64,000 bases of DNA from Frigoriflavimonas asaccharolytica (GTDB taxonomy: Bacteria; Bacteroidota; Bacteroidia; Flavobacteriales; Weeksellaceae): contig NZ_JABSNO010000013.1 in assembly GCF_013294015.1 (NCBI RefSeq), forward strand, positions 1 to 64,000, written 5' to 3'. Position 1 is the first letter of the stretch; each line of letters starts with the position of its first letter. The position numbers and the translations under genes were made by a program. The notes below the pieces were generated by a model, which was given only the letters and a program-made list of their open reading frames with translations, was not told where the DNA came from and made no database searches. Below, piece after piece: positions 14,246-16,412 of the stretch.

Positions 14246-14656
14246 AATTCAAACTTTTAAAAATCTACTATTAAAAATCTAATGTACCAAAATAATTCAA
14301 GATTGAATTTTGTATAAAGATAATATCAAATTATTGTAAATGCTTTAGAAACACATTTTCTTCTGTTTTTGAATGTACCATTAAAGAAAAATATCCAGTT
14401 TATTATTCAATAGACTGGATATTTTTATACTGGGCTTCAATATAATTTTAGTATTCTTTATCTATCATTAATGGTGCAGATTTATAATATCCTTCGTATC
14501 AATCTGATAAAAATTTATAAAGTGTGAAATCAATTTTTGTTTTTTTATATTCTAAATTGTTTGCTAATTTCCTTTAATTTTCTACTTTAATTTTCTACTT
14601 TAATTTTAAAAAGCAATGCAACAAACCTTCCGAAAATCTCGCTTCACCGCATAAAA
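14246..14656. other. Noncoding gap after the response-regulator remnant
   Basis: The roughly 410 bp contain an orphan terminator hairpin (14387-14426) and a 13-bp direct repeat (CTTTAATTTTCTA at 14572-14584 and 14585-14597, plus a partial copy to 14607). No convincing ORF is seen. The missing parts of the two-component system may have been lost here. Confidence 0.5.
14387..14426 (+). terminator. Orphan terminator hairpin
   Basis: AAAAATATCCAGT pairs perfectly with ACTGGATATTTTT across a 14-base loop. No intact gene ends just before it; it may be the original terminator of the decayed two-component locus or end a small RNA. Confidence 0.65.
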
Positions 14657-14686
14657 AAAAGAGAATCAAATTAATGATTCTCTTTT
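14657..14686 (-). terminator. Terminator of tRNA-fMet copy B
   Basis: On the minus strand AAAAGAGAATCA pairs with TGATTCTCTTTT around a six-base loop and runs into eight T residues, seven bases after the tRNA 3' end. The same hairpin follows the other tRNA copy and every array unit. Confidence 0.85.
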
Positions 14687-14692
14687 CCTTTG

Positions 14693-14765
14693 TAGCGGAG
14701 ACACGACTCGAACGTGCGACCTCCGGGTTATGAGCCCGACGAGCTACCTACTGCTCTACCCCGCG
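14693..14765 (-). tRNA. tRNA-fMet (CAT), copy B
   Basis: A 73-nt minus-strand cloverleaf with anticodon CAT (complement of 14730-14732). Three consecutive G:C pairs close the anticodon stem (GGG-CTCATAA-CCC), and the first acceptor pair is unpaired (C1 opposite U72). Both are hallmarks of initiator tRNA. The CCA end is not encoded. It is identical over all 73 nt to the copy at 16340-16412. Confidence 0.93.
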
Positions 14766-14776
14766 ATTTTGTTTTG

Positions 14777-14784
14777 CAAATATA
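14777..14784 (-). promoter_or_regulatory. -7 box TATATTTG for tRNA-fMet copy B
   Basis: An exact -7 match 11 nt upstream of the tRNA 5' end on the minus strand. No TTTG stands at the right distance, unlike the copy A promoter. Confidence 0.5.
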
Positions 14785-14914
14785 CAACAATAAATTACAA
14801 TTCCTATAAAAAAGATTTAATTTTCTAAAAACTAGAAAATAGGATATTAGAATGCATAATTATATACTTATTCAATAGTAATAATCCTCAAAAAATGTCG
14901 CTTCAACGCACAAA

Positions 14915-14944
14915 AAAAGAGAACCAAATTAATGATTCTCTTTT
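14915..14944 (-). terminator. Array hairpin beyond unit 1 (native tRNA-flank side)
   Basis: AAAAGAGAACCA pairs with TGATTCTCTTTT (one G-T pair) and runs into T residues on the minus strand. It follows the unit 1 tRNA remnant just as the true terminator follows the tRNA. Equivalent hairpins lie at 15262-15291, 15609-15638, 15957-15986 and, after tRNA copy A, 16304-16333. Confidence 0.75.
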
Positions 14945-14950
14945 ACTTTG

Positions 14951-15013
14951 TAGTCCGCCATTGGCGGAACTCGAACTTGCGTCCGCCTTTGGCGGATATG
15001 AGCTCACAAGCTA
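14951..15013 (-). repeat. tRNA-fMet 3'-half remnant, unit 1
   Basis: On the minus strand it preserves TAGCTtGT, GCTCATA (anticodon loop) and the T-loop segment, then CTACAAAG as at the tRNA 3' end. Two 15-bp hairpins of the form TCCGCC-AAA/AAT-GGCGGA replace the anticodon-stem/variable region and the acceptor stem. It cannot fold as a tRNA. This copy differs in the T-loop block (AACTTGC instead of AACGTGC on the plus strand). Confidence 0.7.
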
Positions 15014-15249
15014 TTTTTTAAAAATTGACGACCTGCACCACTTTTTATATACTTCTCTCTTTGAATTGCATCTTTTTTATTATCAAAAAACTCAACGTAA
15101 ATTACAGGCCAAGGTCTATATTTTCTTGTAAATCCTTTGTTCGAAAGCAAATTGTGAGATCTAAAACGAGATATTAAATCAGAAGTAAAACCAGTATAAT
15201 GAATTTTATACTTTTCTGAATAAAGAACGTAAACTACAAACTCTTCCAT
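15004..15249 (-). CDS. GIY-YIG endonuclease-like protein, array unit 1 (full length)
   Basis: The protein has 81 residues. VYVLYS (6-11) is the GIY strand and YTGFTS (18-23) the YIG strand; Arg28/Arg30 and His32 follow, and Glu65 (QREKYIKSG) is the likely catalytic glutamate. Single-domain GIY-YIG proteins are DNA endonucleases and often belong to mobile elements. The ATG at 15249 is preferred because upstream codons in the open frame only translate the preceding tRNA remnant and hairpin. The stop codon lies in the unit's own tRNA remnant. This is the only undamaged copy of the four. Expression must get past a terminator hairpin. Confidence 0.75.
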   Translation of the reverse strand: MEEFVVYVLYSEKYKIHYTGFTSDLISRFRSHNLLSNKGFTRKYRPWPVIYVEFFDNKKDAIQREKYIKSGAGRQFLKNSL

Positions 15250-15297
15250 ATTAAAAATAAAAAAAGAGAACCAAATTAATGATTCTCTTTTACTTTG

Positions 15298-15360
15298 TAG
15301 TCCGCCATTGGCGGAACTCGAACGTGCGTCCGCCTTTGGCAGATATGAGCTCACAAGCTA
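15298..15360 (-). repeat. tRNA-fMet 3'-half remnant, unit 2
   Basis: It has the same structure as the unit 1 remnant: anticodon-loop segment, T-loop segment and 3' end, interrupted by two CCGCC/GGCGG hairpins. One arm base is changed (GGCAGA for GGCGGA on the plus strand). Confidence 0.65.
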
Positions 15361-15464
15361 TTTTTTAAAAATTGACGACCTGCACCACTTTTTATATACT
15401 TCTCTCTTTGAATTGCATCTTTTTTATTATTAAAAAACTCAACGTAAACTACAAGCCAAGGTCT

Positions 15465-15596
15465 TTATTTTCTTGTAAAGCCTTTGTTCGAAAGCAAATT
15501 GTGAGATCTAAAACGAGATATTAAATCAGAAGTAAAACCAGTATAATGAATTTTATACTTTTCTGAATAAAGAACGTAAACTACAAAATCTTCCAT
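15465..15596 (-). pseudogene. GIY-YIG ORF, array unit 2 (nonsense at codon 44)
   Basis: The frame matches unit 1 (with MED for MEE at the start) until codon 44, where TAT (Tyr) has become TAA. The frame stays open beyond this stop, so a single base inactivates it. The product would be 43 residues and lack the catalytic Glu65. The identical mutation is present in unit 4. Confidence 0.75.
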
Positions 15597-15644
15597 ATTA
15601 AAAATAAAAAAAGAGAACCAAATTAATGATTCTCTTTTGCTTTG

Positions 15645-15707
15645 TAGTCCGCCATTGGCGGAACTCGAACGTGCGTCCGCCTTTGGCGGATATGAGCTCA
15701 CAAGCTA
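15645..15707 (-). repeat. tRNA-fMet 3'-half remnant, unit 3
   Basis: A 63-nt remnant with intact CCGCC/GGCGG hairpins and the anticodon-loop and T-loop segments of tRNA-fMet in the original order. Confidence 0.65.
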
Positions 15708-15743
15708 TTTTTTAAAAACTGACGACCTGCACCACTTTTTAAA

Positions 15744-15944
15744 TTACTTCTCTCTTTGAATTGCATCTTTTTTATTATCAAAAAACTCAACGTAAACTAC
15801 AAGCCAAGGTCTATATTTTCTTGTAAATCCTTTGTTCGAAAGCAAATTGTGAGATCTAAAACGAGATATTAAATCAGAAGTAAAACCAGTATAATGAATT
15901 TTATACTTTTCTGAATAAAGAACGTAAACTACAAACTCTTCCAT
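15744..15944 (-). pseudogene. GIY-YIG ORF, array unit 3 (nonsense at codon 67)
   Basis: It is identical in layout to unit 1 up to Lys66; codon 67 TAT has become TAA. It keeps Glu65 but loses the last 15 residues. In the variable positions it resembles unit 1 rather than units 2 and 4. Residual activity cannot be excluded. Confidence 0.7.
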
Positions 15945-15992
15945 ATTAAAAATAAAAAAAGAGAACCAAATTAATGATTCTCTTTTACTTTG

Positions 15993-16055
15993 TAGTCCGC
16001 CATTGGCGGAACTCGAACGTGCGTCCGCCTTTGGCGGATATGAGCTCACAAGTTA
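15993..16055 (-). repeat. tRNA-fMet 3'-half remnant, unit 4
   Basis: The remnant nearest the intact tRNA copy A. It has the same two embedded hairpins; the inner edge reads TAACTTGT instead of TAGCTTGT. Confidence 0.65.
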
Positions 16056-16159
16056 TTTTTTAAAAATTGACGACCTGCACCACTTTTTATATACTTCTCT
16101 CTTTGAATTGCATTTTTTTTATTATTAAAAAACTCAACGTAAACTACAAGCCAAGGTCT

Positions 16160-16291
16160 TTATTTTCTTGTAAAGCCTTTGTTCGAAAGCAAATTGTGAG
16201 ATCTAAAACGAGATATTAAATCAGAAGTAAAACCAGTATAATGAATTTTATACTTTTCTGAATAAAGAACGTAAACTACAAACTCTTCCAT
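16160..16291 (-). pseudogene. GIY-YIG ORF, array unit 4 (nonsense at codon 44)
   Basis: It encodes 43 residues before the same TAT-to-TAA change as unit 2. It lies directly behind tRNA-fMet copy A and its hairpin. Downstream codons remain in frame. Confidence 0.75.
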
Positions 16292-16303
16292 ATTAAAAAT
16301 AAA

Positions 16304-16333
16304 AAAAGAGAACCAAATTAATGATTCTCTTTT
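16304..16333 (-). terminator. Terminator hairpin after tRNA-fMet copy A
   Basis: AAAAGAGAAtCA/TGgTTCTCTTTT-type stem (one G-T pair) followed by a T tract, placed seven bases after the tRNA 3' end. It separates the tRNA from the first GIY-YIG ORF. Confidence 0.8.
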
Positions 16334-16339
16334 ACTTTG

Positions 16340-16412
16340 TAGCGGAGACACGACTCGAACGTGCGACCTCCGGGTTATGAGCCCGACGAGCTACCTACTG
16401 CTCTACCCCGCG
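16340..16412 (-). tRNA. tRNA-fMet (CAT), copy A
   Basis: The same 73-nt sequence as copy B, with the initiator hallmarks of three G:C pairs closing the anticodon stem and a mismatched first acceptor pair. The anticodon is the complement of 16377-16379. It has a full promoter (16424-16454) and is the tRNA into whose 3' end the array is registered. Confidence 0.93.

Follow-up and report, generated by a model that had tools for sequence, protein, structure and literature searches.

A tandem GIY-YIG nuclease array at an initiator tRNA gene and its tRNA-linked relatives in Bacteroidota and Patescibacteria

Why should an intact initiator tRNA gene be followed by four copies of a small nuclease gene, each trailed by a piece of the same tRNA? 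The question is raised by a 64,000-nucleotide stretch of the Frigoriflavimonas asaccharolytica genome (contig NZ_JABSNO010000013.1, positions 1 to 64,000; hereafter the window), where a tandem array of units encoding a GIY-YIG protein lies 3′ of a tRNA-fMet gene. Comparison with relatives in other genomes supports insertion, tRNA specificity and purifying selection of the element family. The unit is probably a minimal selfish element of the homing type, whose only gene encodes a GIY-YIG nuclease with specificity for a single tRNA gene, in this case tRNA-Met(CAT).

Four units between a tRNA-fMet gene and its native flank

The minus strand carries, in order, an upstream region, tRNA-fMet (16412-16339), a terminator, four units and the native downstream flank. 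Tandem Repeats Finder delimits the array at 14912-16342 (period 347, 4.1 copies, 97% matches), and the unit starts are spaced by 347, 347 and 348 bp, in agreement with the four 347-bp units that an earlier, sequence-only reading had placed between the tRNA and its flank. One unit consists of a leader, a GIY-YIG open reading frame (ORF) of 81 codons, a remnant of the tRNA-fMet 3′ half and a terminator copy. The ORF starts ~11 nt past the T run of the preceding terminator and is the sole gene of the 347-bp unit in the ORF listing.

The element's site is the intact tRNA-fMet (CAT) at 16339-16412 (ARAGORN; Rfam RF00005, 56.7 bits), on the minus strand like all features of the array, with a terminator hairpin immediately 3′ of it (16304-16333). 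The unit 4 ORF (16049-16291) contains a nonsense TAA and is followed by a tRNA-fMet 3′-half remnant (15987-16048, palindromes at 15996-16010 and 16024-16038) and a terminator copy (15957-15986). In unit 3, a 1-nt insertion shifts the reading frame of the ORF (15701-15944); its remnant occupies 15639-15700 (palindromes at 15648-15662 and 15676-15690) and the terminator copy 15609-15638. The unit 2 ORF (15354-15596) has a nonsense TAA identical to that of unit 4, and its remnant (15292-15353) carries one exact palindrome at 15301-15315 and a second with 1 mismatch, ahead of a terminator copy at 15262-15291. Unit 1, farthest from the tRNA, holds the only intact ORF (15004-15249; 81 aa, P0001, plus stop), a tRNA-fMet 3′-half remnant (14945-15006, palindromes at 14954-14968 and 14982-14996) and the final terminator copy (14915-14944).

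The native downstream flank of the tRNA follows at 14897-14911 (TTTGTGCGTTGAAGC...) and matches both element-free relatives and the flank of the second tRNA-Met gene in the window. This second tRNA-fMet (14692-14765, minus strand) is identical in sequence to the first, has its own terminator (14657-14686) but no element, and serves as an internal empty-site reference. The flank after the last unit, GTGCGTTGAAGCGACATTTT, resembles the one after the second tRNA's terminator, ATGCGGTGAAGCGAGATTTT, so the native-flank claim of the sequence-only reading holds, as does its report of the second identical tRNA.

Three columns among the units are informative, and because all of them pair units 1 and 3 against 2 and 4, the latest expansion of the array was probably the duplication of a two-unit block. 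Four independent insertions are less likely, as the common variants fit dimer duplication. Insertion followed by amplification, as first proposed, is supported, with the refinement that the array probably grew by dimer duplication and that most copies are dead.

A GIY-YIG nuclease under purifying selection

The unit protein matches PF01541 (GIY-YIG; 61.1 bits, E 1.3e-16). An ORF of this kind had been assigned to every unit; the domain is real, but an intact frame survives only in unit 1. Across 19 diverse members, the residues of the GIY, YIG, R, H and E motifs do not vary. Purifying selection on the nuclease is supported: in most pairs the nonsynonymous rate (dN) lies well below the synonymous rate (dS), with dN/dS values such as 0.055/0.625, 0.041/0.432 and 0.085/2.777. 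The domain, catalytic residues and selection that define a homing endonuclease gene are all found here. NCBIfam contains no family for this protein. Its nearest solved structures are uncharacterised UPF0213 proteins and, next, the structure-specific SLX1 nucleases, so an enzyme that reads DNA structure has to be considered as well.

Relatives at tRNA genes in two phyla

The best homologues outside this genome (Flavobacterium circumlabens and Bacteroidota metagenome-assembled genomes) also lie 3′ of tRNA-Met, with a remnant and the same type of palindrome. A second element in the same genome, L005, lies 3′ of tRNA-Arg(TCT), and the remnant of that tRNA has another palindrome in place of the anticodon stem.

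A search profile built from 19 members, mostly tRNA-linked, finds matches in 160 of 247 Bacteroidota genomes sampled. From these, 148 clusters were fetched, or 143 once duplicates were removed; clusters within one genome are not independent, and draft contig ends cut several arrays. A tRNA lies within 150 bp on the same strand at 106 of the 143 clusters and on the opposite strand at none (0/143). Two layouts occur. In type A (n=86), the ORF comes after the tRNA, starting a median of 45.5 nt 3′ of it, and is followed by a 3′ remnant. Type B (n=25) is the mirror form: the ORF ends a median of 5 nt before the tRNA, and the tRNA 5′ half lies upstream of the ORF. Scored by a simple exact-word chain, 97 of 111 tRNA-linked clusters have a partial copy of the same tRNA past the ORF, compared with 1/111 for shuffled flanks. 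The copied portion takes in the anticodon arm in most cases, more than the 3′ tip, and can extend to the D arm. About half of the clusters without a near tRNA still show tRNA pieces, and most others belong to one clade. The link to a tRNA gene and the incomplete duplicate of that tRNA beyond the unit, which the sequence-only reading had singled out as the things to look for, are thus both there. The position directly downstream of the tRNA, about which it asked, holds for type A and fails for type B, which sits 5′ of the tRNA.

Among Patescibacteria (candidate phyla radiation, CPR), the profile matches in 85 of 116 sampled genomes. A same-strand tRNA lies no more than 200 bp away at 21 of 39 loci examined, mostly in the type B arrangement, and 11 of 23 tRNA-linked loci pass the remnant test (0/23 when shuffled). 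Strand, remnant and tree controls rule out chance or an annotation artefact.

At two loci, L041 and L042, the tRNA and its GIY-YIG unit appear to have been separated by the entry of an integrative element, with the 3′ tip of the tRNA left in front of the ORF. All six viral contigs L052-L057 have short partial GIY-YIG matches near a contig end and are possibly prophage ends at tRNA sites.

Nuclease clades mostly keep to one tRNA isotype

A tree of 140 nucleases requires 26 changes of tRNA isotype, compared with a minimum of 66 and a mean of 71.8 in 200 shuffles, and 10 changes of side (A or B), compared with at least 17. Clades are visible for Met, Asn, Cys, Leu, Ser, Asp, Val and Arg-TCT; that for Met has 30 members and a Shimodaira-Hasegawa-like approximate likelihood ratio test (SH-aLRT) value of 97. 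The tree is built on 81 columns and weakly resolved, many of its forks being weak because the protein is short. That a given nuclease clade stays for the most part with a single isotype is supported.

Homologues scattered without any tie to tRNA genes, the outcome named beforehand as contrary to a tRNA-targeted element, turned up only in one separate clade. This sister clade of the same nucleases has 11 members (L032, L039, L082, L093, L098, L106, L108, L122, L139, L141 and L160) and an SH-aLRT value of 96. In 11/11 members, the ORF lies between terminal inverted repeats of the form ACCCCGTnnnATa...tATnnnACGGGGT. Several members lie inside protein genes, and L139 abuts an RNase P RNA gene.

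About 200 bp 3′ of the GIY-YIG ORF of L039 lies a palindromic copy that lacks an ORF but shares the inverted repeats (CCCTGTTAGATAT...ATTATCTAACAGGG). Both copies sit in one dinD-like gene and resemble a miniature inverted-repeat transposable element (MITE) next to its autonomous parent. The genome that holds the window has two more GIY-YIG ORFs without a tRNA link, L006 (C4:55596-55802) and L007 (C27:31461-31631), inside repeated DNA with a GTCACGCTGGA...AGAATGACAAA repeat and CTTCGACTGCGCTCAG/CTGAGCGAAGTCGAAG palindromes.

Empty and occupied sites

Within the same family, more than 12 genomes carry a tRNA-fMet with 99% identity to that of the window, and most of them lack the element, which is patchily present (44/296 genomes of the family at E 1e-10). 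Two genomes under one genus code, G006 (empty) and G035 (occupied), align at the same locus over 800-1608 with 83% identity, covering the upstream region, tRNA and terminator; this upstream region also precedes the window tRNA. In G035, the sequence that forms the tRNA tail, the terminator and the native flank in empty G006 reappears 721 bp further on, which corresponds to a two-unit insert. The empty sites whose existence in related genomes the sequence-only reading had raised as a question are therefore present, both in this pair and in most tRNA-fMet relatives. The gene resides at its specific target and related alleles are without it, as for a homing endonuclease gene.

The remnants are altered by palindromes, yet the restored tRNA of occupied G035 is the same as that of empty genomes. 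In the window, a single acceptor-stem base, common to both tRNA-fMet copies, differs from the tRNA of element-free relatives. A donor tRNA that acts as a resistant allele is unsupported by these comparisons.

Palindromes in the tRNA remnants

The remnant in the window is colinear with the tRNA 3′ half and starts near the anticodon arm. Perfect palindromes, TCCGCCAAAGGCGGA and TCCGCCAATGGCGGA, replace its anticodon-stem/variable region and its T-stem/acceptor side. What had looked "scrambled" on first inspection is thus a colinear copy with palindromes in place of stems. As RNA, the remnant forms stable hairpins and not a cloverleaf (z -6.5 relative to shuffled sequence). Palindrome TCCGCCNNNGGCGGA has seven sites in the 3.43-Mb genome, all within the array, with zero control matches.

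A stem of at least 6 is present in 26/60 remnant interruptions and in 1/60 control segments. In the Met clade, the palindrome substitutes for positions +4 to +13 counted from the anticodon start. Many other palindromes are clean insertions, with zero tRNA bases lost, into the D loop (for example type B Arg, GGATA-palindrome-GAG), the anticodon loop (Glu and Ser remnants) or the T loop (for example Ser, GGGTTC-palindromes-GAATCC), and palindromes recur at corresponding tRNA positions from one genus to another. Of 13 palindrome matches in 20 other genomes, 9 are located at elements, and genome G323 has a different palindrome, CCTGCCTGCCGCAGGCAGG, dispersed at low copy. A genome-wide palindrome of the repetitive extragenic palindromic (REP) kind is rejected for the window genome, where all sites are in the array, and partly survives for CCTGCCTGCCGCAGGCAGG in G323.

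Genome G004 has ORF-less 99-bp arrays made of a palindrome-bearing pseudo-tRNA and a terminator, 3′ of both tRNA-fMet genes (L195, 1220-1527, and L254), together with ORF-bearing copies at another tRNA-Met. At L010 (2900-3700), an array starts at the anticodon loop sequence (CTCATAACC) and the tRNA 5′ half is absent in front; this moved or truncated copy may mark the unit boundary.

Elsewhere in the window, a Flavo-1 RNA (RF01705, 69 bits) lies at 20782-20868 on the plus strand. A short response-regulator-like ORF (13871-14245, plus strand, 124 aa) looks internally deleted or truncated.

A proposed mechanism and its alternatives

The idea of a minimal element without integrase at tRNA-fMet that leaves the tRNA whole, put forward in the sequence-only reading, is supported. 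The tRNAs are continuous, and the unit has the GIY-YIG ORF as its only gene. We infer that the nuclease cuts and that the element is copied as a consequence, the nuclease itself being the presumed cause of insertion. It would cut the tRNA gene in or near the anticodon arm, and the break would be repaired from an element-bearing copy with the homology of the tRNA alone as a guide. The element would supply its own tRNA half (the 3′ half and terminator in type A, the 5′ half in type B), and because it carries this half the tRNA would be restored on insertion. The recipient's displaced half lies beyond the ORF, an anatomy that is observed directly; the direction of transfer is deduced from the terminators. 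Such repair would yield exactly the observed layout, in types A and B alike. L017, L019, L021, L022 and L028 each have two unlike terminators, one at the intact tRNA and one past the remnant, of which the outer resembles those of element-free tRNA-fMet loci. Since inner and outer terminators differ and the outer ones are of native type, the element appears to bring half a tRNA with its own terminator and to leave the recipient's half in place.

The palindromes, found in or in place of loops and stems, may disarm the displaced half so that it is neither cut again nor folds as a tRNA. No promoter is obvious for the ORF itself, which is probably transcribed by read-through from the tRNA promoter. 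Recombination between repeats could then grow or collapse arrays while the ORFs decay, and array change is seen in the dimer duplication of the window and in the ORF-less 99-bp arrays of G004. Tandem growth would be expected if the restored tRNA remains cuttable or if the repeats recombine. Both the cutting of tRNA genes and tandem amplification have a measured precedent in phage SegB (PMC13096335).

Several points weigh against this reading. Type A remnant starts vary by clade (about -5 in Met, -16 in Arg-TCT, -22 to -31 in Val), which leaves a single fixed cut site unproven; one universal site at the anticodon loop is unsupported, as remnant ends depend on the clade. The sister clade has the same nucleases without a tRNA link. 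At L037 (1385-2402), tandem tRNA-Val(GAC) genes have GIY-YIG units between them, with a remnant from a different tRNA (acceptor end GGGCCCAC). Because the restored tRNA is identical in G035 and in empty genomes, the tRNA sequence alone would give the host no immunity, and self-cutting must presumably be limited in some other way. The tRNA-linked share in Bacteroidota (74%) does not give the frequency among small GIY-YIG proteins in general, because the sample was drawn by a profile of mostly tRNA-linked members.

A nuclease that reads DNA structure, like SLX1, could instead act at extruded hairpins, in which case the mobile unit would be the palindrome or hairpin, the ORF would be optional and tRNA arms would serve as natural hairpins. 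The rank of SLX1 nucleases as the closest solved structures after UPF0213 speaks for it, as do the palindromes placed cleanly in the tips of tRNA arms, the existence of ORF-less arrays, the inverted repeats round the ORF throughout the sister clade and the second, ORF-less palindrome in the L039 gene. GIY-YIG inserts in CPR rRNA genes, which are not introns, fit as well, most rRNA inserts lying at the tops or bases of stem-loops (PMC11270868). We nevertheless regard this alternative as unlikely, since the strong fidelity of clades to an isotype implies sequence recognition and the palindrome is absent outside the array in the window genome.

The isotype link would also fit an activity directed at the tRNA itself. 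The GIY-YIG protein or the palindrome-bearing pseudo-tRNA might regulate, cleave or protect the adjacent tRNA at the RNA level, and the array would be a maintained RNA module, of the host or selfish. That the remnant folds far better than shuffled sequence, and that some inserted hairpins have very stable small loops, agrees with this; to our knowledge, however, known GIY-YIG enzymes are DNases, and patchy presence, the many empty relatives and three dead ORFs out of four in the window make it quite improbable. Least probable, and by our estimate hardly credible, is the view that integrase-driven islands at tRNA 3′ ends passively left these sequences behind as debris, with the nuclease genes as leftover cargo. 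Integrative elements do restore the tRNA and leave a far-end copy, and L041 and L042 look invaded by one, but debris would not account for a single-gene unit without integrase, a type B that duplicates the tRNA 5′ half, an isotype predictable from the nuclease clade, or palindromes at equivalent tRNA positions across genera.

The tRNA-specific homing element is thus the reading we retain. Bacteroidota and CPR genomes are rich in small GIY-YIG proteins, many of which would be accounted for, if true, by a shared function as selfish nucleases directed at particular tRNA genes. Such a function would also add a third harmless way of occupying a tRNA gene, besides integrases and self-splicing introns, and provide a natural collection of small DNA-cutting enzymes, each specific for an isotype. 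The neighbouring tRNA predicts the target of each clade, and the idea is therefore directly testable. Pseudo-tRNA arrays can mislead tRNA and gene annotation. More tentatively, the elements could belong to a separate class of mobile element, in which free-standing GIY-YIG nucleases transfer DNA with hairpin tips into the arms of genes for structured RNAs (tRNAs and perhaps also rRNA and rnpB), keep the host gene whole by means of a carried half tRNA and plant palindromes that disarm the spare half; such a class would span Bacteroidota and Patescibacteria and include MITE-like ORF-less derivatives and the inverted-repeat sister branch.

Comparison with known systems

The closest parallel is SegB of phages T4 and T6, a free-standing GIY-YIG homing nuclease that cuts inside tRNA genes at RAWTSGAAC and for which tandem amplification of tRNA plus segB via recombination at short homology is described (PMC13096335; Brok-Volchanskaya 2008 cited there). 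SegB is a phage gene, and the available portions of that source describe no half tRNA, displaced remnant or palindromes (PMC13096335). A small GIY-YIG nuclease encoded among tRNA genes and tandem amplification of tRNA and nuclease gene are the common ground, whereas the elements here occur in bacterial genomes of two phyla, mostly with one isotype per clade, and are known from sequence alone. The SegB motif is, by our reading, the complement of the T-loop sequence.

The 3′ ends of tRNA genes are hotspots for integration. Integrative elements (integrative and conjugative elements, prophages and islands) likewise restore the tRNA from an element-borne part and leave a partial tRNA at the far end, as seen here in the 97 clusters (1 when shuffled). 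The GIY-YIG unit differs in having no integrase, a size of ~350 bp, one nuclease gene, a 5′-side mirror version and palindromes in the remnant. Group I introns of tRNA genes with homing endonucleases, and IStrons, are also mobile elements with a homing-type nuclease, located near the anticodon of a specific tRNA gene (PMC3984707, PMC4227781), whereas here the tRNA is uninterrupted and no ribozyme was detected. A group I or II intron is rejected, as the tRNAs are continuous and an Rfam scan of the window and 20 loci found no intron family.

Stand-alone UPF0213 and Slx1-like GIY-YIG proteins have the same minimal domain and the closest solved structures (PDB 1zg2, 1ywl, 7wme), but the accessible part of their description gives no tRNA-gene link or mobility for them (PMC1564403). 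REP sequences with their REP-associated tyrosine transposases (RAYTs) and MITEs also combine short palindromes with a small nuclease gene and have ORF-less derivatives, comparable to L195 and L254. The unit here has no Y1 transposase as its mobilising gene, its palindrome is confined to the element in the window genome instead of dispersed, and it is sited at tRNA genes. CPR rRNA genes contain inserts with GIY-YIG genes that are not introns, in a report that does not mention tRNA (PMC11270868). In line with the sequence-only reading, which knew of no described element of this build, our literature search found no description of tRNA-linked elements of this kind within an incomplete open-access coverage. 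The comparison points to a widespread, apparently undescribed kind of selfish DNA that resembles SegB in its nuclease and integrative elements in how it restores its tRNA.

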